Of a stretch of 64,000 nucleotides of DNA, positions 14,472-63,259 are shown in pieces (positions within the stretch are counted from its first letter, which is position 1; each line of letters opens with the position of its first letter). The notes under the pieces are model-generated. The model did no database searches, had not been told where the DNA came from, and worked only from the letters and a program-made list of their open reading frames with translations. The position numbers and the translations under genes were made by a program. The stretch spans positions 14,782,625 to 14,846,624 of the forward strand of contig OY811972.1 in NCBI GenBank assembly GCA_963681505.1. The letters run 5' to 3'. The stretch comes from Eunapius fragilis. Taxonomy: Eukaryota; Porifera; Demospongiae; Spongillida; Spongillidae.

Positions 14472-17294
14472 GGACACGAGGCAAGTACTGGCATACTACG
14501 TTGTAAATTATTCAATGCACGATCTCTTAGAAATAAGCTTGATAACTTATCTTGTTTGTTACAATCTGCTGATTTTGACGTGATTTTTATAACTGAGTCA
14601 TGGTTGAGATATGATTTTCCTGATTCTCTTATCTTGTCCAAAACATCCTATAGTTTATTCAGAAAGGATCGACCTGATGGCTACGGTGGAGTTGCTGTTT
14701 TTGTAAGCAATTTGCTTAAAGTTGTAAGCATTGATATACCACCTATGTACAGTTCTTTAGAATGTGTGGCACTTGATTTAGTGCTTTCCAAGGCCTCTTG
14801 CTATCGATTTATTTGTGTCTACCATCCCCCAACTTGTGCTGCTAGTAGTGTCGACACTGCAAATCTGTGCTCGCTCATTGATTCCCTTTCCATGGCAACA
14901 TATCCTTTGTTTATTGTTGGTGACTTTAACCTACCCAATATTAATTGGTATGTGCCTATTAGTCTGGGTTCTTCTTCTCACGATTTATTTTTGACTTGCA
15001 TGATGCGAAATGGTCTTACTCAACTGGTATCACATCCTACGCATGGATCCAATTGCATTGATTTGGTTTTGGTATCCACTCCTGACTTGATCTGGGACAT
15101 TTCTGTTGTTGAACCATTCTCTTCCTCATGTGATCATTCAGCTATACATTTCTCAGTTTCTTACCCTGTTGTTATTAGTGATAGACAAAACCATTGTTTT
15201 CTTGACTTCCTCAATGCTGACTATTGTTCTATGATATCAATTGTGAAGGATATTGACTGGTCTTTCTTGTGTCAGAATAGTTTATCAGTTGAAATGTTCT
15301 GGTCTAAAATATCAAACGTCCTACATTCCTGTATAGCCCAATTTGTTCCTCGCCGTTATCAGTCCCGTAAACCGTTTTCTTATCCCATGCACATAAGGCG
15401 CTTGCTGGGATTGAAAAAGTTGTGGTATAGTAAAGACAAGGTTCGCTATAAACACTTTGCTAGAAAGTATGATACGGCTGTCAAAGAATTCATCTTGTCT
15501 CAGGAAAACAACGTTCTCAATAAGAAAAGCTTATCATCTTTCTATTCATATGTAAACTCCAAGCTTACTACCTCTCGGTGTATACCCCCTCTCATTGACT
15601 CCAATGACAATTTGGCTGTCTCAAATCATGATAAATGTACTGTGCTTAATGATTATTTTGCTTCTGTCTTTACTGCTGACGATGGTTTGCTCCCAGAATT
15701 TGTGCCTCGTCTCTCTGAAAATAAATCCCTAAACTCTGTTCTCTTCCCATTTGACAAGGTCCTTAAGACTTTAAAATCATTGCCATCAAAATGTTCTAAA
15801 AGTCCTGATGGGTTTCCCGCTTTTTTCTTAAAGTCTTTAGCCCCAGCTATTGCTTTCCCATTATCACTCCTTTTTGAGATGTCTATGAGTACAGGACATA
15901 TACCCTTAGTTTGGAGGACTGCATTTGTATGTCCTGTCTTTAAAAAGGGTTCACGAAAACAGCCCAGTAACTATAGACCTATCTCACAAACGTGTATCCT
16001 TTGTAAAGTTATGGAAAGTATTATATCATCTTCTATGATATCCTTCCTTCGTACTCATAATCTTATCTCACAGGATCAGTTTGGTTTCCTCGCTCGACGT
16101 TCTGCTTGTACACAGTTACTGATAACTCTGAACAATTGGACATTGAATGTTGACAATGGCATGAAGGTGGATGTTGTGTATACTGATATTGCTAAGGCCT
16201 TTGACACTGTCTCCCACTCGAAATTATTGCTAAAGGTTGAGGCTTATGGCTTTAAATCAAACTTGCTTCAGTGGATAAGAGCCTTTTTAAACGACCGCAC
16301 ACAATGTGTATATGTAGGACTTGATGTATCATCTCCTAAATCCATCACCAGTGGTGTACCACAGGGTTCTGTCCTTGGTCCTCTCTTGTTTCTGATGTAT
16401 GTCAATGACCTTCCTAACCATGTCCAATCTCCAGCTGGCATTAAAATCTTTGCTGATGACACAAAACTGTATCTTGGTTATACTGAAAATCAAAATACAC
16501 CACTTACACAATCCTTAAATCAATTTTGTTCATGGTCCAAGACATGGCAACTGACTGTTGCTTATTCCAAGTGCTCTGTCATTTCCTTTGGTTCTCGTGG
16601 TTATGAGCCTACTTCACCTTACTCACTTTCTGGTATTCCTTTGCAATTCGTATCATCTATAAGAGATCTTGGGGTGTGTTTGAATTCAGACCTTACGCCA
16701 AGTATGCACTGCTCAAACATTGCTTCCATGGCTTTCAATAGGAGCTGTCTTCTCTTAAAATGCTTTCATTCTAACGATGTGTCTCTCCTTGTGCGTCTTT
16801 ATAAGGTGTATGTTCGTCCCCTTCTGGAAAGTAATACCCAAGTTTGGAATCCCTGGTTCCATAAAGATATTCAATGTATTGAACGTGTTCAGAGATTTTT
16901 CACTCGTGCCATTATCAAACGTGCTGGTACACCATATATGGATTATGATGATCGCCTTGCAAACCTGGGTTTACAGTCCTTAGAGTACAGGAGAGTCTTC
17001 TACGACCTTGTCATGTGCTACAAGATCTATAATAACCTGGTTGATTTACCTTTTGAGAGTTTTTTCACCAAACCGGCTAGGCCGTATTCCATCCGAGGTC
17101 ATCCTTGTATCCTGCGATCCAAACATTTACCCCATCATGCATTCCGAGCGCATTTTTTCACAGAACGTGTGATACCTATATGGAACCACTTACTGCAAGA
17201 TGTTGTCACTTCATTGAACATTACAGTTTTTCGTACCCGACTTAGATCTGTGGACCTTTCACCCTATTGTATGTTATATCCCTCCCATGTATAG
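14472..17294 (+). CDS. LINE ORF2, APE endonuclease and reverse transcriptase
   Basis: Open from the codon after the ORF1 TAG to TAG at 17292-17294 (about 940 codons, same frame as ORF1). The endonuclease begins with FNARSLRNKLD (about residues 14-24) and has FITESW, GDFNLPNINW and the SCDHSAIHF catalytic histidine block. The RT shows motif A (YTDIAKAFDTVSH), motif B (SGVPQGSVLGPLLF) and motif C (FADDTKLY). The first ATG occurs only near 14754, inside the endonuclease, so a full enzyme needs stop-codon readthrough, reinitiation at a non-AUG codon or a fused precursor. Function: target-primed reverse transcription. No RNase H domain follows the RT. Confidence 0.88.
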   Translation, partial: GHEASTGILRCKLFNARSLRNKLDNLSCLLQSADFDVIFITESWLRYDFPDSLILSKTSYSLFRKDRPDGYGGVAVFVSNLLKVVSIDIPPMYSSLECVALDLVLSKASCYRFICVYHPPTCAASSVDTANLCSLIDSLSMATYPLFIVGDFNLPNINWYVPISLGSSSHDLFLTCMMRNGLTQLVSHPTHGSNCIDLVLVSTPDLIWDISVVEPFSSSCDHSAIHFSVSYPVVISDRQNHCFLDFLNADYCSMISIVKDIDWSFLCQNSLSVEMFWSKISNVLHSCIAQFVPRRYQSRKPFSYPMHIRRLLGLKKLWYSKDKVRYKHFARKYDTAVKEFILSQENNVLNKKSLSSFYSYVNSKLTTSRCIPPLIDSNDNLAVSNHDKCTVLNDYFASVFTADDGLLPEFVPRLSENKSLNSVLFPFDKVLKTLKSLPSKCSKSPDGFPAFFLKSLAPAIAFPLSLLFEMSMSTGHIPLVWRTAFVCPVFKKGSRKQPSNYRPISQTCILCKVMESIISSSMISFLRTHNLISQDQFGFLARRSACTQLLITLNNWTLNVDNGMKVDVVYTDIAKAFDTVSHSKLLLKVEAYGFKSNLLQWIRAFLNDRTQCVYVGLDVSSPKSITSGVPQGSVLGPLLFLMYVNDLPNHVQSPAGIKIFADDTKLYLGYTENQNTPLTQSLNQFCSWSKTWQLTVAYSKCSVISFGSRGYEPTSPYSLSGIPLQFVSSIRDLGVCLNSDLTPSMHCSNIASMAFNRSCLLLKCFHSNDVSLLVRLYKVYVRPLLESNTQVWNPWFHKDIQCIERVQRFFTRAIIKRAGTPYMDYDDRLANLGLQSLEYRRVFYDLVMCYKIYNNLVDLPFESFFTKPARPYSIRGHPCILRSKHLPHHAFRAHFFTERVIPIWNHLLQDVVTSLNITVFRTRLRSVDLSPYCMLYPSHV

Positions 17295-28965: not shown

Positions 28966-29877
28966 TCATTGTGCAGATGCAATAGTTGCTGTGTCTGAAG
29001 GATGTGTTAGTGGATGCCGGGTGTAGGTGGTGTACGTGTTGCTGCTCCATCTTCCCAGCTGCTGGATGGTGGATGTCGGGAGACCTGCTTGTGCTGCTGC
29101 TGTTGCTGCCCCAATGCGAAGACTGTGGGTGTTGTACCTGGAGGTGTCGTACCCACCTCTCAGGAGAAGGTTTCGCAGGGTAGCTCTCATAGCCCTCGCT
29201 GTGAGTGGGCCTCCAGTCTTAAAATGAAAGAGAGAGGAGTCTGGTGGTTCTTTGCACTGGTCAAAGTAGGCTTGCATCATGGTGACTGGACATGATCTAC
29301 GACCAGTGTAGCCTATGGATATTGTCGTGCCTCTCCCAACCTGGTCTGTCTTTGATTTCTTAATGAGAAAGTGCATCCCATCTTTGACCCAGGTGATGTT
29401 GCTCATTGTAGGGTGGAGCCTGGGGTCAAATCTGCTCCTGGTGGCGACAGTGTACTCGCTGACCCTCAGGAAACCAAAGAAACCGAAGGTCAGAGCTGCT
29501 TTCAGCATCAGTCGGTCATGTTTGCTGAAAAGGTCAGTCTCGAGTAGCTGCAGTAGTTCCTCCAGCATCCCGGTAGTGATAGGTAGTCTCTTGGGCCTGA
29601 GGTGTACCGGACCTTGAGATCTCTGTATGCCTCGGGTGGCTAGGTTGAGAGTTGGGTTGTTGCTTGTTGGGCTCTGAAACCCATGGGTGAGGTGGAGGTG
29701 ACTGACTGCAGCGAGGTACACCTGAATGGTGTTGGCCTGGAGTGTATGGCTGAGGTAGGCTGCAAACAAGTTGATGGCGTGCTTGGATCCTGGCAGGGGG
29801 GCGATGCCGAGTGTATTGCAGAAGGTGTAGTACTTCCGGATTCCAGCCCTGTAGGTGGTTGATGTTGAAGGGGCCAC
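28966..29877 (-). CDS. Tyrosine recombinase (integrase) of the Ngaro-like element
   Basis: About 303 codons. N-terminal core-binding helices (STTYRAGIRKYYTFC) are followed by the catalytic domain with box I arginine (FGFFGFLRVSEYT), HSLRIGAAT (H-x-x-R), GRW and the nucleophile tyrosine in TYTRH. It would integrate the circular cDNA by recombination at short identical sequences. The frame has no ATG at its start (GTG at 29877) and remains open upstream past the end of the RT frame in the -1 phase, so a frameshift, overlapping initiation or separate transcript is needed. Stop at 28966-28968, about 100 bp before repeat B1. Confidence 0.9.
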   Translation of the reverse strand: MAPSTSTTYRAGIRKYYTFCNTLGIAPLPGSKHAINLFAAYLSHTLQANTIQVYLAAVSHLHLTHGFQSPTSNNPTLNLATRGIQRSQGPVHLRPKRLPITTGMLEELLQLLETDLFSKHDRLMLKAALTFGFFGFLRVSEYTVATRSRFDPRLHPTMSNITWVKDGMHFLIKKSKTDQVGRGTTISIGYTGRRSCPVTMMQAYFDQCKEPPDSSLFHFKTGGPLTARAMRATLRNLLLRGGYDTSRYNTHSLRIGAATAAAQAGLPTSTIQQLGRWSSNTYTTYTRHPLTHPSDTATIASAQ

Positions 29878-29909
29878 GCCTCTGTGCAGGAGGTGCCTCA
29901 GGTGCCTTT

Positions 29910-31655
29910 CTAGAGCTCTTCCAGTATGTGGGACACTGGTGTTGGCTGCTGGTTGGCCTGGGGAGCAAGGGAAAAGAAACGTGAGATCTGGTTACGGGAT
30001 AGTGCATCTGCAATGCAGTTCAGTCTGCCCGGGAGATGTTTGAGGGCGACTGTAAAGCTGTGCTGTGCAGCAATAAAGAACAGTTTCCTCAGTAGTTCCA
30101 TTATACCAGGATGCTTAGAGGACTGGTTGCTCCATGCCTGCACTATGGGTAGATTGTCGCAGTTGAACCTGATTCGTCGACCCTCCAGGAGGTGGCCCCA
30201 CGTGAGAGCGGCTGCCACTATGGCGAAGAGCTCCTGCCACTGAATGGAACGTGTGGGGAGCTGCTGGTGTGGTTGCCAGTCGCCTCGGAACCAGGCTCCA
30301 TTGAAGTAGGCCCCATATCCCAGAGAACCAGATGCATCTGTGAACAACTGGAGGGAGTCGGCGTCACTCCACTCGGGTGAAATAAACATGGCAACGCCAT
30401 TCCATGATGGCAGGAAGCTGTTCCACCATCTTATATCTGCCCTGGCCTCGGAGTTGAGACGGATGTGGTGGTGGAGCCGTCTTGCTGTTGTGGATAGCTG
30501 GATGAGCCTACGAAGGAATAGGCGCCCTGCTGGAACTACCTTGGCTGCAAATGAAAGCTTTCCTATGAGAGAAAGCAGTTCTCTCTTGGTGACTTTGTGT
30601 AGCCCAAGCCATGACCTGGTCAGGGATGATATTTCCTGCAGCTTTTCTGGTGGCAATCTGAGCTGCTGCAGTGAGGAGTCCAGGACAATGCCGAGGAAGG
30701 TGATGCAGGTCGCTGGACCTTCACACTTTTCGGTGGCCACTGGAACTCCCAGTCTCTCGCAGAGTTGCATCATGGTGGTCATGGACTCCTGGCAGGTGGG
30801 CTGTCCTGGAGGTCCAACTAGGAGGAAGTCATCCAGGTAGTGGAGTAACGTTGCTCCGTAGTTGTTCTCCAAGATCCAGTGCAGAGCGCTGGCGTAGTTG
30901 TCAAAGAGACTTGGGGCTGAGCGAAGACCAAACGGGAGACATGTGTCGACATAGTACTGCCCTCTCCAGTACATGCCAAGAAGTTCCCAGTCTACGGCTT
31001 GGATTGGAACCATCCTGAATGCCGACTTCAGGTCCACCTTGGCCATCATGGACCCCTTCTTAAATCTGCTGAGCAGGGCTACAGCGTCGTCTAGCGTGGA
31101 GTAGTGCATTGAGAACTCATCCTTCGAAATGAAGTCGTTGATGCTGAGTCCTTCCGGTGCTGACAGGTGAAGGATCACTCTCCATTTTCCGTTTTTCTTT
31201 GGGACTGCCCCAAGCCCGGATGTGCGGAGGTTCTTGAGGGGGGGCTGGCAAAAGGGGCCCAGGATGCGTCCTGATTCCACCTCTTTCTGCAGTTCATCGT
31301 CCACAACTTCAGGGTGCTGTAGTGCAGAGGTAAGGTTGCGTGCTGTGTAGGAAAAATGTGGACCATTGTAGCCAGTGGAAACACCGTTGTCGATGCCATT
31401 GAGTAGCCAGGAGACCCAGGCCTTGTCCGGATGTGCCTTCAACTCGTGCTCAAAGGCTGAGCGTCGTAGTGGAGTGTGAGCTCTCTGGAGCTCACGTAGC
31501 TCCCGAAGTGACCCGGGTGCAGGCCTTGGCAGGGTGATCCCCACTACAGCCCGTGATCCAGCACTTGTGGGCGAAGGTACATTCTGCACCCTTTGTACAC
31601 TTGCCGAAGTTGAACCTCCGGCAGATCTCCTCCCCTGATGGTGTGTGGGTAGCAT
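29910..31655 (-). CDS. Reverse transcriptase / RNase H of the Ngaro-like element
   Basis: 581 codons from ATG 31655. RT motifs: MAKVDLKSAFRMVPI (motif A), LPFGLRSAPSLFDNY (motif B) and YLDDFLLVG (catalytic YxDD). RNase H follows: LFTDASGSLGYGAYF, WQELFAI, CDNLPIVQAW (D-E-D) and LPGRLNCIADALSR. The N-terminus overlaps the Gag-like frame by about 160 nt in another phase. The RT signature LPFGLRSAP is typical of the DIRS/Ngaro order rather than LINEs. Not truncated. Confidence 0.92.
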   Translation of the reverse strand: MLPTHHQGRRSAGGSTSASVQRVQNVPSPTSAGSRAVVGITLPRPAPGSLRELRELQRAHTPLRRSAFEHELKAHPDKAWVSWLLNGIDNGVSTGYNGPHFSYTARNLTSALQHPEVVDDELQKEVESGRILGPFCQPPLKNLRTSGLGAVPKKNGKWRVILHLSAPEGLSINDFISKDEFSMHYSTLDDAVALLSRFKKGSMMAKVDLKSAFRMVPIQAVDWELLGMYWRGQYYVDTCLPFGLRSAPSLFDNYASALHWILENNYGATLLHYLDDFLLVGPPGQPTCQESMTTMMQLCERLGVPVATEKCEGPATCITFLGIVLDSSLQQLRLPPEKLQEISSLTRSWLGLHKVTKRELLSLIGKLSFAAKVVPAGRLFLRRLIQLSTTARRLHHHIRLNSEARADIRWWNSFLPSWNGVAMFISPEWSDADSLQLFTDASGSLGYGAYFNGAWFRGDWQPHQQLPTRSIQWQELFAIVAAALTWGHLLEGRRIRFNCDNLPIVQAWSNQSSKHPGIMELLRKLFFIAAQHSFTVALKHLPGRLNCIADALSRNQISRFFSLAPQANQQPTPVSHILEEL

Positions 31656-32895
31656 GGTGAGAGCTGCCGGATGAGCCTCCTGGGTGTGTTGATGGTCCGA
31701 CGCCGGTAGATGTTGTCGTCCGTGGGTTGGTGGGGGGTAGTGGCCTGGAACGAAAGGGCGGATTGGTGACGCACCACACCAGTAGATCCTCCTTTAGCGC
31801 ATCCCATCGGAGGGACTGTTGCCTGTCCCTGGCTGCGGCCTGCCTGAAAAGCTTGTCATACTTTAGGGCAGCTGCAGCAGAATGTATGGCAAACAGCTGG
31901 CAAACGATGGATTGATATTTCACGAGCTCCAGGGCTGTTGCGGGGGCGAATTGGACCCGGAGTGCAATGAAAATGTTCCACGCTTCCAGCCAGCTCCCCA
32001 GGTCGCAAACCTGTCGCGTGTTCTTCGTTTTCTGCTGCTTCCCGCCAGTGACAGTGAGAAGGTCGTCTACAGGAGAGAGCAGTTTATCAAATCGCGCGTA
32101 CTTACCCTTCTTAATTTTGCGCACTTCGCGCCTCGAAGGAGTGGGAACCATCGCAGTGAAAGGGGCGTTGAGGAAACTGCTGACCCGCAATCGAGAACGC
32201 CTCCTGCGCTTCTTGTCCCGGGTTCGTCTCTTGTCCCGCTGGTCCCGCTTGTGGCGCCTCGACTTCCGCTTTCGTTTGTCCGATCGCGAATCAGAGTCGC
32301 TGGAGTCTGACTCGGACGAACTGCTGGAGTCGGAGCTGCTACTGGAACTGGAGCTGGAGCTGCTGCTACTGGGGCTGCTCTCCGGTGAAGGGGATCGCTG
32401 TCTATGACGTTTTTTCCCCACGATGCCACTCTTGGCCTTTTGGGAGCTGTGTTTGGTCGCTGTTATCCGCCTGCTGTGGAGACCTGGTAGCCCGACGCCC
32501 GTTGCGGCGTCGTCGGTAGTCCGTCTCGATCTCCGGCGCTGGGTGATCGTAGGCGTTTCTGACGTCTCCTCCGAACCGCTTGCCGATGTTCCGCTGGGAA
32601 CTTCGGGAACTGATGCGGCTGCACCCTCCGCTCCGGCGTCCGGTGTTTCGCTGGGAACATCGGATGGGTTCGCCGCATCCTCATCACCCTCGGACTCGGA
32701 GGAGGTCAGCTGGCAGTTAGCGTGACCTCGCGGCCTCGTGGTGCGGAGTCCGGACGAGCCCTGTACGTAGCTTGCCTCGTGCTGGAGAAGGCGTTCCACG
32801 AGGGCGACTTTGGTACCGGTCGTGTCGAGGTTGGCCTCCGTAAGCTTGGCGCGCAGTGCCTCGTTAGTGAGGCGCATTAATGCTTGACGTGCCAT
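31492..32895 (-). CDS. Gag-like protein with SAP domain and zinc fingers
   Basis: 467 codons from ATG 32895. Residues about 5-40 read as a SAP helix-extension-helix (LTNEALRAKLTEANLDTTGT, VALVERLL), a motif usually binding A/T-rich DNA. A long serine-rich then Arg/Lys-rich stretch follows (about 170-240, RS-like). The C-terminus (about 430-460) has a CCCH finger (C-x7-C-x5-C-x3-H) directly followed by C-x4-C-x3-H-x4-C. Position upstream of RT suggests the Gag role in packaging element RNA. A SAP plus CCCH build is unusual compared with the simple zinc knuckle of most Gag proteins. Confidence 0.8.
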   Translation of the reverse strand: MARQALMRLTNEALRAKLTEANLDTTGTKVALVERLLQHEASYVQGSSGLRTTRPRGHANCQLTSSESEGDEDAANPSDVPSETPDAGAEGAAASVPEVPSGTSASGSEETSETPTITQRRRSRRTTDDAATGVGLPGLHSRRITATKHSSQKAKSGIVGKKRHRQRSPSPESSPSSSSSSSSSSSSSDSSSSSESDSSDSDSRSDKRKRKSRRHKRDQRDKRRTRDKKRRRRSRLRVSSFLNAPFTAMVPTPSRREVRKIKKGKYARFDKLLSPVDDLLTVTGGKQQKTKNTRQVCDLGSWLEAWNIFIALRVQFAPATALELVKYQSIVCQLFAIHSAAAALKYDKLFRQAAARDRQQSLRWDALKEDLLVWCVTNPPFRSRPLPPTNPRTTTSTGVGPSTHPGGSSGSSHHATHTPSGEEICRRFNFGKCTKGAECTFAHKCWITGCSGDHPAKACTRVTSGAT

Positions 32896-50340: not shown

Positions 50341-50540
50341 NNNNNNNNNNNNNNNNNNNNNNNNNNNNNNNNNNNNNNNNNNNNNNNNNNNNNNNNNNNN
50401 NNNNNNNNNNNNNNNNNNNNNNNNNNNNNNNNNNNNNNNNNNNNNNNNNNNNNNNNNNNNNNNNNNNNNNNNNNNNNNNNNNNNNNNNNNNNNNNNNNNN
50501 NNNNNNNNNNNNNNNNNNNNNNNNNNNNNNNNNNNNNNNN
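50341..50540. other. Assembly gap of 200 N
   Basis: The gap begins right after a minus-strand GTAAGT at 50340-50335, a consensus donor. A STAT exon probably lies at the near edge of the gap or ends exactly there. The far side is GGAGG repeat, which likely caused the gap. Confidence 0.95.
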
Positions 50541-53581: not shown

Positions 53582-53950
53582 CTACTTGCTGCTGGTGTAC
53601 TTGGTCACAGCCTTGGTACCCTCGCTCACCGCGTGCTTAGACAGCTCACCAGGAAGGTGGAGTCTCACGGCAGTCTGGACCTCCCGGCTGGTGATGGTGT
53701 GCTTCTTGTTGTAGTGGGCCAGGCGGGACGCCTCGGTGGCTATCCTCTCGAAGATGTCGTTCACGAACGAGTTCATGATGCTCATGGCCTTGCTGGAGAT
53801 GCCGGTGTCTGGGTGGACCTGTTTCATCACCTTGTAGATGTAGATGGAGTAGCTCTCCTTGCGGAGCTTCTTCTTCTTGCTCTTCTCTCCGGGCACCTTT
53901 GGCTTGGCGGCTGCCTTCTCTCCCTTCTTGCTTGCGACCTTTCCTGGCAT
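53582..53950 (-). CDS. H2B: Histone H2B
   Basis: Complete 122-residue intronless H2B. A lysine-rich N-terminal tail ([18 protein letters not shown]) is followed by the histone fold starting [20 protein letters not shown], with [20 protein letters not shown] and the C-terminal helix [17 protein letters not shown] including the usual ubiquitinated lysine in AVTKYTS. It pairs with H2A in the nucleosome. It shares a 256-bp divergent promoter with H2A, and a TATA box lies about 56 bp upstream of the ATG. With its stem-loop it is a replication-dependent gene. No defects. Confidence 0.97.
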
Positions 53951-54206: not shown

Positions 54207-54308
54207 ATGACTGGACGTGGAAAAGGAGGCAAGGCCCGCGCCAAGGCGAAAAGCCGCTCTGCCCGCGCTGGACTACAGTTCCCCGTTGGACGTGTTCACC
54301 GTCTTCTC
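54207..54308 (+). pseudogene. H2A: Histone H2A, 5' part (first 34 codons)
   Basis: ATG 54207 begins [20 protein letters not shown] and continues through the first helix to GRVHRLL, where the sequence changes into the left end of a TIR element. The next H2A residues ([10 protein letters not shown]) are found at 62870. The last six bases, CTTCTC, are repeated at 62864-62869 as target duplication. Read as it stands, the frame runs into the element and stops about 20 codons later, removing most of the histone fold. Without the insertion the gene would encode 134 residues. Confidence 0.95.
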
Positions 54309-54560
54309 TATGAAGCGCCGTTTGGGACAAAATTCACATTTTTCTGTCGATGCGATACTTTTTTTTAGCGATGTGTACTTTATCAATCGTAGCGACCGCT
54401 TTTCCTATCTCATCGATCGATCTTATCTATCGATCTGGTAATAATTTGTCGTAGTGGCTGATTTCCCTCGCATATTTTCTACATGTATTGCCTTATTAAT
54501 CCAGTACGCGGCTAAAACATTCGCCTTCGTCGAACAACCTACGGTATCGAGGGTACTGCG
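54309..54560 (+). repeat. Left terminal inverted repeat
   Basis: About 250 bp mirrored at 62863-62622, with a few small indels and substitutions. Rich in ATCGATCGAT words. Confidence 0.93.
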
Positions 54561-54686
54561 ATGCTATCGATTCAGTGGTAAATCATACATAGGCCTATTT
54601 CACGTTCAATAGAAGCCCTATATTTAAAACCCTTTATACAGGGTATTTTCAGGGTCCAGGCAGGAAGGGAGTGTGTATGTATGTGC

Positions 54687-54689
<3 letters not shown>

Positions 54690-54769
<80 letters not shown>

Positions 54770-54812
54770 GAGATGTGTGTGCAGTGTGCGTTCGCATGTG
54801 TGATCAAAGCAT

Positions 54813-54859
<47 letters not shown>

Positions 54860-54862
54860 TGT
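54690..54862. repeat. (TG)n microsatellite in the left arm
   Basis: Two TG runs separated by CGCGGAGATG. The mirrored CA run lies at 60520-60607 in the right arm. Confidence 0.95.
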
Positions 54863-55290
54863 AGGTGCCCCTCCCCTCCCCTTGGTAAAACTGATCCTTT
54901 GCTAGTCACTATGCCCCCTACATAGAAATTGATAATATAACGTTTACTCACCAAGCTAGGGAAGCTGTGCTAATTCTGCATTTAGATGGGGACATTCCAC
55001 AGGGGAAAGGACACTCTTTTTTTAAATAGTGTAGCCAGGATGCTTCCTGCTCAGAGAATACATGTATTTATCTAGTCAGTCAGTGGCACAAATTAATGAT
55101 TATTTGAGACTCCAGTGTTAACAATACCCATGTGCAAGATTACAGTTCAGCATCTATTACTTAAGGAGGTAGTTGGAATGCTGTGTGGTGAGTGTGTGTG
55201 TATGTGTGCTTATGTTTTATCATATCTAGGTGACTGTGGGAGGATAATCAACACAGCCAGGATCGTGCCAATTTTTCTAAGACACAGGCC

Positions 55291-55860
55291 TTAACCTATT
55301 GATATGGGATGATATGCCAAGTGATTGTACAAGTGAAGCCTTTATTTTTTCCTCTGGCTGTGTATGCAAGTTTTAAAATTAATACATCAGATTTATACAC
55401 ATCCTCAATGTTATTTGTACATTTTAATAGCTTTAAAAGAAAGATTTGCAAGTGTGCATGTCATTGATATATGTTTTCAAGTTTCAAATATTATAAGTGG
55501 TTTTTAATACATAACTCATTTAATTGAACACTTCTACACTCTTCACAAAATACTGGATTCGTTATCGGGCATTATTTAGAGGTAGATCTAAAGTGAGGTA
55601 GATAGGCATCCACCCAGCTGGTTAGACATCCATCTCATCACATGGCCTACAACATATTCACTGCATAAAATTTGTATTTACAAAGTATTTTCTATTAATT
55701 CAATGTGGTGCAAATGTGTTAGTAAATATGGTATACATGACATCAACACAATAGTAAATATAAAGGATTCATTTACTATAGCGGAAATGACACATGCAAT
55801 ATTTACATACATATTTGCACCATATTTGAATAAGAGTGGCTTAAGCTGCAGAAAGAGCGC
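55291..55860. other. Element interior, no gene seen
   Basis: AT-rich DNA in the unpaired middle of the foldback element. No motif recognised. Confidence 0.4.
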
Positions 55861-55867
55861 AGGATGG

Positions 55868-56340
55868 TACCATCGCCATTCAGCTGTCAATGGCATCATT
55901 ACACAGATCTTTGGCTGCGGCACATGTTCCATCACATTTGGAGCCTTCAGGTCTGTATCGCTCAGATGGGAAGCGACCTGATGGTGTCAGGCTCAATTGT
56001 CCCTTGGAAATGTGGCCAACTTCAAGCGTGGGATGCAACATGTCCAGATACGTTTGCATCATCTTACTCTACAATTGCTATACAGCAAGTTGGAGCACTT
56101 GCTCAACAGGCAGAAGATAAGAAGATGACTACCTTGACTCATGCCACTTTTTCACTCCAGTGACAATAGAGACAACTGGAGTGTTTGGACCAAGAACAAC
56201 TGAGTTCCTTAAACATTTGGGCCATCGGTTGAGGCAGGTGTCTGGTGAAGCTAACTCCTATGCTTGCCTTAATCAGTTGCCGTCCAACGGGGCAATGCAG
56301 CTTCCTTGTTGGGGCAATGAAGGTGGACAGTGAAGATGAA
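55868..56340 (+). pseudogene. RLE-type retrotransposon C-terminal fragment
   Basis: Three frames give one decayed product: PSGLYRSDGKRPDGVRL, then QAWDATCPDTFASSY, then PVTIETTGVFGPRT and LKHLGHRLRQVSGEA. The order RPDG, 15-20 residues, WDxTCPDT fits the PD-(D/E)XK nuclease core of restriction-like-endonuclease LINEs. Frameshifts show it is dead. Confidence 0.6.
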
Positions 56341-56499
56341 GTGTTTTTTGTATAAATTTATTATTTAGTGTATCTAGTTTAATGTAGTTGGACATTAGTG
56401 TTGTATCTTTTTTTTCATTACCACAAAAAAAAAAGAGTAAATACAATGCAAATCCAAATTATTATGCAGTGATTTAGGTTTCAAGTGTGATTGATATAC

Positions 56500-57060
56500 C
56501 ATTGGCTCGGAGGAAGACTGGTAATAGGCCAGGTGAGATGCCAGCATGGAGGGGTGTCCCAAGCCTCCTTGTCCCAATGGCTGTATGCCTCCATGCCAAT
56601 CAAATGCAGGACCAACCTAACTCCTGGTATTTGGGTCCATTGGCGTGGAGCTTACAGGCCTTTGCAGGAAGGGCTGCTAGCACCAGCCTTTTGTGACATG
56701 GCTCACCCAAGGTTGCAAGGCAAAGAGGTGATGCACGCAATCGTGATGTCCTGAACAGCTGGCTTGTCTTTGTGCCAACCAGTGATAAGCACTGCTCAGT
56801 ATGGCTATGCCCTTCTCCACACAGGAACTTATGATCAGATGAGCATGAATACATAGTTTGACAACCACATTACCAGGTGGTGGCATATGACAACATCTTC
56901 CCCATGCCTGCAGGTCACTGCATGGTGGCTGAGGGGATTGAGGGTATTGTGTCTTGGGCAGAATTGGTACACAGACGTGCCAGATGTTCCAAATCCAACC
57001 ACCACCTTGTACTCATTGGTCCAAGTGTAAGCCCAAGCCAATGCATAGGATCATTGGTCG
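56500..57060 (-). pseudogene. RLE-type retrotransposon fragment, opposite strand
   Basis: On the minus strand: CPRHNTLNPLSHHAVTCRHG, EDVV, then VVVKLCIHAHL in another frame, then LHANGPKYQELGWSCI. The HHAVTCRHGxDVV block and the ELGWSCI block match the order in the 39.4-40.4 kb fragment (HRALTCRSGGDII, RLGWTCIH), so it is the same broad family. Several frameshifts. Confidence 0.6.
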
Positions 57061-57089
57061 CATGAGGGAGAAGGCTGATAGAAGGCTCT

Positions 57090-58400
57090 ATTGGCAGACC
57101 AACATATTATTAAGTAATTGATAAATTGATAACAGTATTCTAATTTGTTGTACCACATAGTTTTTATGTAGCATCGGTTACAAATGAAAATTCTGTTCAG
57201 CATTCTTTAGTGCATCTACAATGACCTATCATCATTATTATTAGAAAGCCAATATTGAAGCTAACTGACGTTTCTTTAGTAGTGAGTGCATATTGACCCC
57301 TACACAACACGAATATTTGGGCCACTCGTATCAAGTTATTGTGCATTAACGTTTTCGTAAATTACACCCACCAAGAGTGCTCAATCATAAATCTTGACAT
57401 GCACACTTGCACTTACCAATCCAATTAATTACCTCCTAACAAAATGGAACCTGGGCTTCAGTCATATGGGACTAACAGAAGATCTTGCTATTCGATGTGT
57501 GACTGATAAACTGTACCATTATGGTTGATGAACATTTACATAAGGATGCATATGAAGCTAAGGGTCTGAACTAGCTGTCCAAAGTGACCAGAAGTTGGTA
57601 GATGTACTGAATACACCTCATAATCCATCATTGGTGAAAGATTTTATGGTCATGCAGAATAATAGGTGTGCATATATATAGCATGGTGTGCCTGCAATAA
57701 AGTTGTGTGCATCAGATAAAAGGGGTCAATAACTAGCTAGTAACACAAACCCATTCCTGCACCACATATTATTCATCACTAGGACCCAGTATGTGACAAT
57801 GGTATGTGGTGTCATTGTGATGTGAGAATGCATCTTAGGTGAATCCCTGTCACCAGGCCTAATTAGGTTAGTTTATACGTATTTATGTGATCATGATATG
57901 TGTTGGTGTGTATAGACGTTTGGTCTATCTATAGTGTGTGATGTCCCTACATTTTGATTCTTTAACACTTACATAAAACCAATGTTGTAGGCTATGTGAG
58001 AGATAGTCCCCTAACTAGCTCACTTTAGATCTAGCTCTATGAATAGTGGATCCAGCTTTTTGTAAAGAGGGTGGAAGGGTTCAATCAAAGGTACCACACC
58101 ATGCCCTCTTCAATCTTTGAAAACAGGAATTATATAGTTATACACGTTACATGTACATTGCTGATTATAAATGCAAACTAAATGTGTACACTTGTGAAAT
58201 TTCTGAAAAACCCAAATAACATTGAGTTGTTAAGCAGTACACGCACAAATCCAATGTGTTAATGCAAAACAGTAATTGTTTTAACTTGCATACACAACCA
58301 GCATAAAAAATAACATAAGGTTAAGCGCTACACTTGTGCCACATCATTTCGCAGTTCTTCCTATATAAAGCTGTGTGTCTGAAATTTCTAACAAGTTGGC
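57090..58400. other. No supported gene
   Basis: AT-rich middle part of the foldback element. No repeat partner or protein family recognised. Confidence 0.4.
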
Positions 58401-58742
58401 GCAATTCTGAGACATTTCCGGCTGTGTTGATTATCCTCACATTGTCACCTGGATGCTGGATAAAACTAAAGCACACACGCATACAGTACACATGCACACA
58501 CATGCACATAACACACACACACACTTGCACACACACACACACACCATTCCAAATACCTACTTAGTATTAGATGCTGAACTGTAATCTTGCACATGGGTAT
58601 TGTTAACACAGGGGTCTCAAATGATCATTAATTGGTGCCACTGACTGACTAGATAAATACATGTATTTTCTGAGCAGGAAGCATCCTAGCTAAACTATTA
58701 AAAAAGGGTGTCCTTTCCCCTGTGGAATATCCTCATCTAAAG

Positions 58743-59274
58743 GCAAAAACCAAGCCTAACTGGCACTTCCTTGCATTACACCTATAGAACATAAAAAAGT
58801 ACCCTTCCATCACTCACCACCAAATGCTAGCAAAAAGGGTCCACATTGTACAATCTAATATAAAATGAGAACACACACATGCTATGCAGACCTATTTACC
58901 CACGTGATGGCACCATGACTGGCCTCCTAGGGCTCTCCAAGTTCAACTATCATTCTTACCCTCCTTCCTATGGTCACCCTATTTTCAAGAAATCAAGTGA
59001 GTACTGCTCGCTGGACCTATACTTGGCCTTCCAGATGGCAGGCTTGGTTTGCATATCCTTCAGCAGGAATCTGTACAATATTGCATTTAGTCCTCTAAAT
59101 GCTACTTTAAACACGTGACATCAGCCACATGTGTCACATGATATAGCACAACTAGTATAGTACACACAGCTGTCTGAACCTACTCTCGTCCAAAGTCGTT
59201 CCAGAACACCACCGACACTGTATTGTTAAATAACACAGCTTTTAATGCTCACACACACACACACACACACACAC

Positions 59275-59326
<52 letters not shown>

Positions 59327-59916
59327 TACATGCACGCATACAGCTGGACCTTTCCAAGGTTACCTCTGCCTTACAAAGGCTGGTAGTGATAATTTTCTCT
59401 GAGACATGCTGACTGCTCCTGGAGCTTGTGCCTTAACTGGAGCAGGTGGACCAGGTGATGTGTTGAGCGAGCCTTGTATTATTGACAGATGGAGAACTGA
59501 TTACTATGGAGAATGTTGGTCCAGATAGAGGAATGAATGTGGGAAGGAGAAAGGGGTGATGGAGTTAAAGGTACATGACAAATGGTAGAGCAAGTGTAAA
59601 CTTGGGGAGGGTGAAACCTAAAAATGGCGTGTGAATTTGGAAATGCTGTGGACAAATTGCACAATGCAAAATACAGGAGTTGAATGGAAACAGGAGTGTA
59701 AAGGAAAAGTAAGGGGAAAGAATGATGGTAGAATTACCTAAAGACCTTAAAATTCTCCTTCGCAGCTGATTCCCAGTCTACTGCCTTTGTAATCTCCATG
59801 CTATCCTCAGAGATGTCATGCACACCTTTTTTGAACAAATGCCTGACAAGTGAACAGTTCAGAAAATTAAACCTACTGGCCACATTCAAAATATAAGCAC
59901 TTTACTGCTTCCCTGC

Positions 59917-59993
<77 letters not shown>

Positions 59994-60258
59994 TACAGTC
60001 ACACACACAGACAACAAAAACAACAGACATACAGATGCAATACACACCAGATACAATTATAATTGTATATTCTTACCAAAGAATGGACCAACAAAGTCAA
60101 TAACACTCCAGCCATGAAATGGCCGCCAAGCTAGCCACTGGTAGCGGGACAGGCTTATCAAGTGGGGTACAATACCATAAACCAAAAGCAGCTGCCTCAT
60201 TAATTCTATAATGGTGCAAAACTGAATAAATCTCTTATAAGTCTTAAGATTAAAACTG
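58743..60258. repeat. Insertion in the right arm of the foldback element
   Basis: Absent from the mirrored position in the left arm: CATCTAAA at 58742 and TGCACAATTAGC at 60259 are adjacent in the mirror near 54967-54985. Contains CA runs (59250-59320, 59920-59985). No transposon ends identified, so deletion from the left arm is the alternative. Confidence 0.5.
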
Positions 60259-60519
60259 CACAATTAGCAATGCTTCCCCTAGCTTGGTGAGTAACCCAAA
60301 CCAGCACCCCCCCTTCCCAAACATTACATTATATTTTCAACGTTGGGAGCAGTTTTATCTGTTGGAGGACAATACTGGGGCATAGTTTCTAGCAAAGGAT
60401 CAGTTTTACCAAGGGGTGGGGTAGGGGAGGGGCACACACACACACACGCACGCACACAAACTTAAACTCACGCATGAATTTTGATATCCTCAGATCACAC
60501 ATGCGAGCGCACACTGCAC

Positions 60520-60543
60520 ACACACACACACACACACACACAG

Positions 60544-60607
<64 letters not shown>
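60520..60607. repeat. (CA)n microsatellite in the right arm
   Basis: CA run interrupted once by GTCA. Mirror of the TG run at 54690. Confidence 0.95.
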
Positions 60608-60610
<3 letters not shown>

Positions 60611-60779
60611 AAGCGCGCGTACGCACGCACACACATACACACACAAATACACACACATGTACATACATAGAGACACGCACATGCACCATTTCTGCCTGGA
60701 TCCTGAACAATTATATACAAAAGAAACTTGTACGGGTAGGGCATTGAACGTGAAATGTATGCATGATTTACCACTATAT

Positions 60780-62575
60780 TAGGTACTGGGGAATCTATGA
60801 TTTTAGACCGTAAAATCCTAGACGTGAAATGAAAAAATTTCTGTTCGCAAATTTAAACTTTTCTGTTGACACCATTTGGTAAAAACGATCTGGTAGCTTC
60901 ATTCAGCTTGATTATGGCTTATCATGCATTCAGAACGACTGCTGAGTGCGTCAGCAATAGGCCAGACTAGTTTTTAAGCTTTAAAACACGCATCGTATTT
61001 CGTAAGTGTTGCTCAAATCGAATACAATTTTCTACCCACGATTTTCGACTCTTAAACGCTGTGTCCCCTCCAATGTAAGCATTCTCCCCTCTAGATACTT
61101 CATCCATCTATCCTTTTACGAAATTTTGTATAGATGAGTCCTAGCGCCGCGGTCCTTGTACGATGCGCCAGTTACTGAACATCATTGAACCAATACATCA
61201 AATGGTACTTTACACTAGGATCTTAAAAAACATCATGGTTAATATCTTAAACCATACCTTTTGAGTTATCATCACTAAAAATATCAGAATTCCAATTTGA
61301 GACAGAACTTTCAGGGTCAAAACATTAATGCATCATCAGGATTAGGTTTTTGGCTTACAACTCAACAAATAGTTCGACTTAAGAGCTCATTTTTTGATGC
61401 ATAGATAACTCATTATAAGAGCTATATATATGGAATGCTTGAACTCTTAAGTCCAGTTCATTGTGAAGATAGGCTTGTTTTTATAAGGATTTTGATATGA
61501 CCGCTGCTTAGCATCACTATGGCCGATTTAATTCGACTTAAGAGATGAAAATTATGTCACACTACTCAGAGGTCCCTAAAGTAGCCATATAATTTTTTAT
61601 AATTTATTGGACACTTGCTAACATTGATACAAATTGCAACGAAAGCAGAAAAGTGAAAAAAATTTAAGAATTGTACTCAATGTTTGGATTCTTCAGTAAA
61701 TGTATACGATACACGCGTGACGTCAGTGTTGGTGTGCGTGCTAGAGATAGCTATGTACGGCGAGTTTTTCGTTTCGAACGCCACGGGTTCTTTTCAGAAC
61801 CATTGCAGCGTGGCATCCCAAATGAACCCTTTCGCTGATGAACCAAGCTCTAGTGGAACAGGAGCCAAGAGACCGATCCGCAAGCGCGATATGACGGCTT
61901 TATTAGTAGAAGTTGCTTTGCCATCGCCAATGAACTCGAGATTTGAAATTCTCTGCTAGGTTTATACTTAAATCGCAGGTGGCATGAGAATTTCACCAAT
62001 GCATTATACAATGGGCATGTTGTAAAAATAAGCCATAAAGCAAAGTTACCAAAACTAACAATTGCATACTGGACTATAGATGAATCAGAAGAAGAAGGAA
62101 TTGATAACACAATTACAGTTATTGAAATGCTCGTGGACTATTTAAATGGTGATTTAGTGTTTGTTGAGGATGGAAATGATGTACCTCAATATTGAATAAT
62201 AACATTATTGTGCTTGATTTTGTGCGTGTTTCATTGTTTGTCAATTTTTATGTTAACAATTTGAAAAGATAAAAGTGAGGAAACTAAATGATGAGACTTT
62301 AAAAAGTCTTCCCTATATCAGAATCACTTATGTGCAATGCTTGAAATTAAAATCTCCAGGTTACGCCTCGTTATAACACAACCGTCACAGTTTTTATTGC
62401 GATTACGCATTAACCGCTGTGCTAAAAAAGTTGTCACTTTGAGGATATGTATCTCTGGTATCGAATATGCTATGGTGACGCAAGAAGTACTGTTAAACTC
62501 ACCTTGTTTTGCTCTTTCTAATGATGGTAATATTATTATCCTCTGAGCATTTTTAAAAAAATTCCCCAGTACCTA
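60780..62575. mobile_element. Nested 1.8 kb DNA element
   Basis: Ends TAGGTACTGGGGAAT and its complement (15 bp), flanked by ACTATAT at 60773-60779 and 62576-62582 as a 7-bp target duplication. Removing it joins the right arm exactly as in the left arm, which independently confirms the boundaries. Contains two short coding-like stretches. Superfamily not assigned. Confidence 0.82.
61684..62192 (+). pseudogene. Coding-like stretches in the nested element, product unknown
   Basis: A 91-codon frame (61684-61959; NPFADEPSSSGTG, KRPIRKRDMTALLVEVAL) begins with TTG-type context rather than a clear ATG. A second open stretch, about 61970-62192 in another phase (RRWHENFTNALYNGHVVKI, then DESEEEGIDNTITVIEMLVD, stop after VPQY), looks protein-like. 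They may be two exons or one broken gene. Not recognised as any transposase; the small size suggests a non-autonomous element carrying a gene remnant. Confidence 0.3.
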
Positions 62576-62621
62576 ACTATATCGATAGCTCCAGCTACAT
62601 ACATGTATCCGATCGATCGCC

Positions 62622-62863
62622 GTACCCTCGATAGCTTAGGTTGCTCGTTCGACGAAGGCGATGTTTTAGCCGCGTGGTGGATTAATAAGGCAATAGAAAA
62701 ATACGACAGAAGTCAGCCACTACGACAAATTATTACCAGATCAATAGATAAGATCGATCGATGAGATAGGACAAGCGGTCGCTACGATTGATAAAGTACA
62801 CATCGATAAAAAAGTATCGCATCGACAGAAAAACGTGAATTTTGTCCCAAACGGCGCTTCATA
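62622..62863 (-). repeat. Right terminal inverted repeat
   Basis: Mirror of 54309-54560. Ends GGCGCTTCATA immediately before the CTTCTC target duplication. Confidence 0.93.
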
Positions 62864-63172
62864 CTTCTCCGTCAGGGGAACTACGCCGAGCGTATCGGGG
62901 CGGGAGCTCCCGTGTACCTAGCCGCGGTGATGGAGTACCTTGCCGCCGAGATCTTGGAACTGGCGGGAAACGCGGCCCGTGACAACAAGAAGCAGAGGAT
63001 CAACCCCCGCCACCTTCAGCTGGCCATCAGGAATGACGAAGAGCTGAACAAGCTGCTGGCCGGAGTGACAATCGCTCAGGGTGGTGTGTTGCCCAACATC
63101 CAGGCCATCCTCCTCCCCAAGAAGGCGGCAGCTGGCTCCGCCCCTTCCAAGAAGTCTGGTGAAGACGCATAA
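62864..63172 (+). pseudogene. H2A: Histone H2A, 3' part
   Basis: Resumes the H2A frame at the duplicated CTTCTC (LL), then [20 protein letters not shown], the acidic-patch region ([20 protein letters not shown]), [20 protein letters not shown] and a tail ending KKSGEDA with TAA at 63170-63172. No substitution or indel disturbs it. It is intact apart from separation from its start, which suggests a recent insertion or a haplotype in which an uninterrupted allele exists. It has no start of its own. Confidence 0.95.
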
Positions 63173-63217
63173 ATACAGTTCTGTCTTTCCCCCTCTTGCG
63201 TCCTGTTGCTTTTAACT

Positions 63218-63233
63218 GGCTTTTTTCAAAGCC
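63218..63233 (+). terminator. Histone 3' stem-loop of H2A
   Basis: GGCTTTTTTCAAAGCC followed by ACCA, 45 nt after the H2A stop. Standard SLBP-binding stem-loop, undamaged. Confidence 0.95.
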
Positions 63234-63259
63234 ACCACTTCACATGAGAGTATTTTGAC

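Follow-up and report, generated by a model that had tools for sequence, protein, structure and literature searches.

What has broken a histone H2A gene in the sponge Eunapius fragilis, how recently did this happen, and at what cost to the cell? These questions are raised by a 64,000-nucleotide stretch of its genome (here called the window), which corresponds to C2:14782625-14846624 of a 219-Mb, 24-contig assembly; all of the genome searches described below covered that assembly. Within the window, an H2A gene is interrupted by more than 8 kb of DNA. The findings make it very probable that an element of the IS3EU/GingerRoot superfamily, presumably mobilised in trans by cut and paste, has recently disrupted one H2A gene in a set of eight or more.

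The interrupted gene is half of a divergent H2B-H2A pair. Its partner, H2B (53582..53950, minus strand), is an intact open reading frame of 122 amino acids (Pfam Histone, E 4.1e-22), identical at 362-364 of 369 bases to the H2B of six paralogous units (L030-L035). On the plus strand, H2A codons 1-34 lie at 54207..54308; these are identical at 97-99 of 102 bases to the same six units and at 86 of 102 to a seventh, L036. The continuous part ends with codon 34 at 54308, and the frame is taken up again by codon 35 at 62870. The remainder, to the stop codon, lies at 62870..63172 (plus strand), and its part from 62930 matches Pfam Histone_H2A_C with an E of 1.1e-19. The hexamer CTTCTC, the target site duplication, is present on both sides of the break, at 54303..54308 and at 62864..62869 (both plus strand), and removal of 54309-62863 together with one CTTCTC restores an uninterrupted H2A of 134 amino acids. 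These results confirm the initial annotation in its claims that H2A is cut in two, that it resumes in frame, and that a 6-bp target duplication surrounds the insertion. As to its further claim, that both halves and the 3' stem-loop are intact, the H2A halves are undecayed and the stem-loop (63213..63256, plus strand) is recognisable, with the same loop letters after the H2A stop as in paralogues L030-L035, but its match to Rfam RF00032 (29.8 bits, E 8e-07) falls under the gathering score of 34; an Rfam scan of the whole window gave no family at its gathering score.

The inserted DNA (54309..62863) is 8,555 bp long, in agreement with the 8.55 kb given at first, and it has the features of a non-autonomous IS3EU-type element: inverted ends, a 6-bp duplication, and ends that are multicopy in the genome. 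It starts with TATGAAGCGCCG and finishes with CGGCGCTTCATA. The left terminal inverted repeat (TIR; 54309..54569, plus strand, 261 bp) is 89.4% identical to the right end, and the right TIR (62610..62863, minus strand, 254 bp) pairs with it. Arms of about 1 kb had been proposed, which overstates their length: inward of the TIRs, the two sides share only discontinuous inverted homology, and the right arm is split by a nested element of 1,796 bp (60780..62575) with ends TAGGTACTGGGGAA. This nested element is flanked by a 7-bp duplication, ACTATAT, at 60773-60779 and 62576-62582, and its empty site is seen in a related copy on C17 (L026), where there is a single ACTATAT and no insert. The end parts of the nested family, minus the middle, also match at 98-100% within a copy at C8:8.07M.

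Related ends are common in the genome. The first 372 bases of the element have at least 45 matches (40 of 93 candidates scored), and a search with its first 24 bases, allowing up to three mismatches, gave 154 matches (53 listed as exact) against zero for the reversed control. Among the three-mismatch matches is a sister family, whose ends are TATGGAACGCCG. Opposite, inward-facing ends no more than 28 kb apart were treated as pairs, and sixteen further ends were left out of the pair count. Perfect 6-bp duplications were found in 7 of the 18 tested pairs of the element's own family: CTTCTC in the window, AAATTT on C15, TCTTCC on C11, ACCTCT on C1, GATGTT on C4, GACTCT on C16, and GATTAC on C19. 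At C9 there are two further right ends, and the six bases outside the outermost one, ATGCAA, equal those of the left flank, which brings the count to 8 of 18 if included. In the sister family, six of seven pairs have a perfect 6-bp duplication, and the remaining one matches at five of six bases. The chance of such counts is about 2e-21 for each family, assuming equal base frequencies. Furthermore, in the table of 13 perfect 6-bp pairs, there is no full match at 5, 7 or 8 bp.

Other observations in this family count against so simple a history. The initial annotation had named TIR copies lacking a 6-bp duplication as a refutation, and 11 of the 18 pairs, as first paired, lack a perfect one (10 with the outermost C9 right end); yet the seven perfect duplications are far above chance, and several of the other copies have damaged or multiplied ends. 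Two pairs, at C21 and C1:19.27M, match at four and three of six bases, and the left end is altered or missing in the copies at C17, C13, C8:8.07M and C15:6.44M. In addition, the copies at C15:3.72M, C1:10.90M and C15:6.44M sit between the inverted arms of other repeats. Inverted flanks are also present, in shorter form, at C8:8.07M and at C1:19.27M and, in longer form, at C15:1.97M and C4; since these last two copies do have duplications, inverted flanks alone do not explain the missing ones. Finally, two large spans without duplications, on C13 (27.8 kb) and C19 (19.6 kb), may be mismatched ends.

In the three duplication-less copies that sit between arms of other repeats (L087/L088, L083/L084 and L085/L086), these inverted arms measure 52-68 bp. 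Insertion at hairpin tips was considered for the duplication-less copies and set aside: the arms at C15:6.44M form the termini of a different multicopy repeat, which elsewhere has an unrelated interior. The terminal sequence is itself repeated at some right ends, three times on C21 (L027; 26 bp apart), three times on C9 (L078; 66 and 26 bp apart), and twice on C20 (L070). When the extra right ends were tried, only C9 gained a perfect duplication, outside its outermost end, and C21, also with three right ends, did not.

Given an insertion within H2A, it might be postulated that the element targets histone genes. A second copy, at C1:19269132-19277147, stops 804 bp short of a diverged H2A gene. 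However, it lacks a duplication and lies between inverted flanks, and the other perfect duplications, listed above, share no obvious motif, so that, with histone distances taken for these two copies, histone targeting is very improbable.

An enzyme able to move the H2A element is suggested by the copy on C4 (C4:995454-1019412, 23,959 bp; L028/L041/L042), which has the same ends and its own GATGTT duplication. Its inverted arms, of 4,514 bp each, are identical, and both contain the same 521-codon open frame. The 521-amino-acid protein matches Pfam rva_4 with an E of 3.5e-83, whereas its matches to rve (E 9.8e-06) and HTH_11 (E 0.029) are below cut-off; its nearest NCBIfam models are IS481 (E 1e-15) and IS3 (E 1.5e-07), both under the curated cut-offs. 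A catalytic triad can be read from the sequence as D264, D321 and E358, that is, DD36E, and an HHCC motif was looked for in the same sequence and was not found. A sequence search of the PDB gave three weak matches, to mS47 (E 0.047) and to two HTLV-2-type integrase entries (E 0.19 and 0.2). Seven full-length transposase frames with 100% identity are present, two each on C4, C8 and C20 and one on C5, and a comparison of the C5 stretch with one of the C8 stretches showed identity throughout 4,563 bases. By tblastn, the C4 protein has left no trace in the window element; among the 12 other copies fetched, C4 alone was positive, and the other 11 had none. Consequently, the window element is taken to be non-autonomous and was presumably moved in trans. 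An enzyme of the C4 type would presumably have acted through the shared ends, the left TIR of the window element and that of the C4 copy being 87% alike across 242 bp.

The C4 copy has a further feature. Upstream of the transposase lies a HECT-like C-terminal exon (L041:8778-9107, plus strand; PF00632, E 2.9e-08), which is common to the C4, C5 and C8 copies at 100%, and an upstream frame gives a weak HECT match (E 0.11). The exon may be cargo or may belong to a captured host gene. A tentative and rather doubtful proposal is that in this autonomous partner IS3EU has a novel architecture, in which an element of 24 kb with identical 4.5-kb inverted arms, each with a complete transposase gene, carries a HECT-type ubiquitin ligase as cargo, is still active, and mobilises large, non-autonomous, gene-breaking relatives. 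Should they prove real, the arms with their two transposases and the HECT-like exon would widen the known structure and cargo of IS3EU.

To which superfamily do these elements belong? In one paper, complete IS3EU families are described as always having TA..TA termini, usually 6-bp duplications, and no HHCC domain; GingerRoot as having 6-bp duplications, mostly TA..TA termini and no HHCC; and the two as forming one lineage with 99% bootstrap support (PMC10045372). Here, the start TATGAAG and the end CTTCATA are present in all five copies compared (window, C4, C15, C11 and C1b), and both the window and C4 copies have 6-bp duplications. An IS3/IS481-related DDD/E transposase without HHCC is carried by the C4 copy and not by the window element. 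Because IS3EU/GingerRoot is marked, in print, by TA..TA ends, 6-bp duplications and an IS3/IS481-like enzyme, the H2A element appears, by its sequence, to be a non-autonomous member of this known but little-studied superfamily. The statement of the initial annotation that no transposase family fits must therefore be abandoned: ends and duplication match a published group, and elsewhere in the genome these ends enclose a DD36E transposase.

That the element is instead a non-autonomous Polinton/Maverick is very improbable. Polinton ends are AG.., whereas those found here are TA..TA, and a transposase of the rva_4, IS481/IS3-like type goes with these ends. Moreover, no Polinton gene (no polymerase B, ATPase or capsid match) was detected in 7 of the 11 other C4 frames of at least 110 amino acids, the remaining four being unscanned. 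The likeness lies in the long inverted repeats, the integrase-like enzyme, the spacing of some end pairs at 20-28 kb, and the 6-bp duplication, a length also given for Polinton in the available parts of PMC10045372. Just as improbable is a misassembly or chimeric join with H2A really intact at this locus; although a single assembly is the basis, a false join would have to account for a 6-bp duplication, exact ends, the same ends with duplications at other loci, and junctions with no N near them, the sole N run in the window (50341-50540) lying away from them. This run is 200 bases long and is probably a scaffold gap.

The IS3EU/GingerRoot insertion into H2A appears to be recent, as had been suggested at the outset, and this view is supported by a near-identical sister copy on C21 as well as by the undecayed H2A halves. 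In two alignments of 6,529 and 2,060 columns, the window and C21 copies differ by 17 and 3 mismatches and by 62 and 6 gap columns (20 mismatches over 8,589 columns); the C21 copy carries an extra stretch of 360 bases. The nested element is common to these two copies, and C17 is without it. Given the few mismatches and the shared nested insert, the window and C21 copies parted recently. The H2A insertion could predate their split if the C21 copy derives from the H2A copy.

The H2A 5' part has seven other matches in the genome: five with a full 134-amino-acid frame, L034, which is frameshifted, and L036, which is diverged and has another tail. In L034, a single base is deleted near codon 90, where the frame shifts. 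The split H2A differs from the five full-length H2As of its type by 8-20 synonymous and one or two replacement codons, and none of its residues is absent from all five; by this comparison it has not visibly decayed. Gene conversion could be an alternative cause of its continuing similarity to the paralogues. The downstream flank is found at full length once in the assembly, plus ten short partial matches elsewhere. Since five other copies of its type are full length, the loss of this H2A is probably tolerated.

Taken together, these results have led to the following model. Relatives of the C4 type would provide a DD36E transposase in trans, and the non-autonomous element would be cut and pasted between H2A codons 34 and 35. 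Filling in of a 6-bp staggered cut would then leave CTTCTC on both sides. Function of the gene at this locus would be lost, and the remaining H2A copies would probably keep the cell supplied, an indication of the way in which histone genes present in many copies can tolerate one that is broken. The H2A insertion itself is ordinary, and the better-preserved relatives elsewhere in the genome are of more interest. As a case of gene disruption by a minor superfamily, the insertion is both clean and recent, and activity could be tested directly because full-length, nearly identical transposase frames exist elsewhere in this genome.

Elsewhere in the window, a LINE-like frame of 940 amino acids with endonuclease and reverse transcriptase lies at 14472-17294. 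Reverse transcriptase and tyrosine recombinase frames with Pfam matches, which we take to be DIRS-like, lie on the minus strand at 28969-31793. Five paralogous-looking, membrane-receptor-like frames (3006, 10393, 20008, 35233 and 41057) are spread over 3006-41983, and a Pfam scan of three of them gave no match at E 0.001.

In the literature that could be searched (most subscription papers lay outside it), no account was found of a transposon inside a histone H2A gene with a target site duplication, nothing linked IS3EU with HECT or a HECT domain with DNA transposon encoding, and, judged by titles, no such IS3EU element in a sponge was found. Among known systems, Ginger1 and Ginger2 resemble the elements described here in their integrase-like transposase. 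However, they were rejected: in the parts of PMC10045372 available, Ginger1 has 4-bp and Ginger2 4- or 5-bp duplications, and Ginger1 has an HHCC domain, whereas none of the 13 tabulated pairs here matches fully at 5 bp. KolobokP has a composite-like design, but its long repeats, as presented in the accessible portion of PMC9587614, are direct and those here are inverted. The closest resemblance is to IS3EU, a superfamily of Repbase, and GingerRoot, in TA..TA ends, 6-bp duplications, inverted repeats, and an IS3/IS481-related DDE transposase without HHCC. In the part of PMC12730594 available, the TET-bearing IS3EU elements of fungi carry TET/JBP and alpha-kinase genes, and those of rust fungi have 6-bp duplications and TAYGG..CCRTA ends; the sponge C4 copy differs in having a transposase frame in each of its identical 4,514-bp arms and a HECT-like exon nearby.

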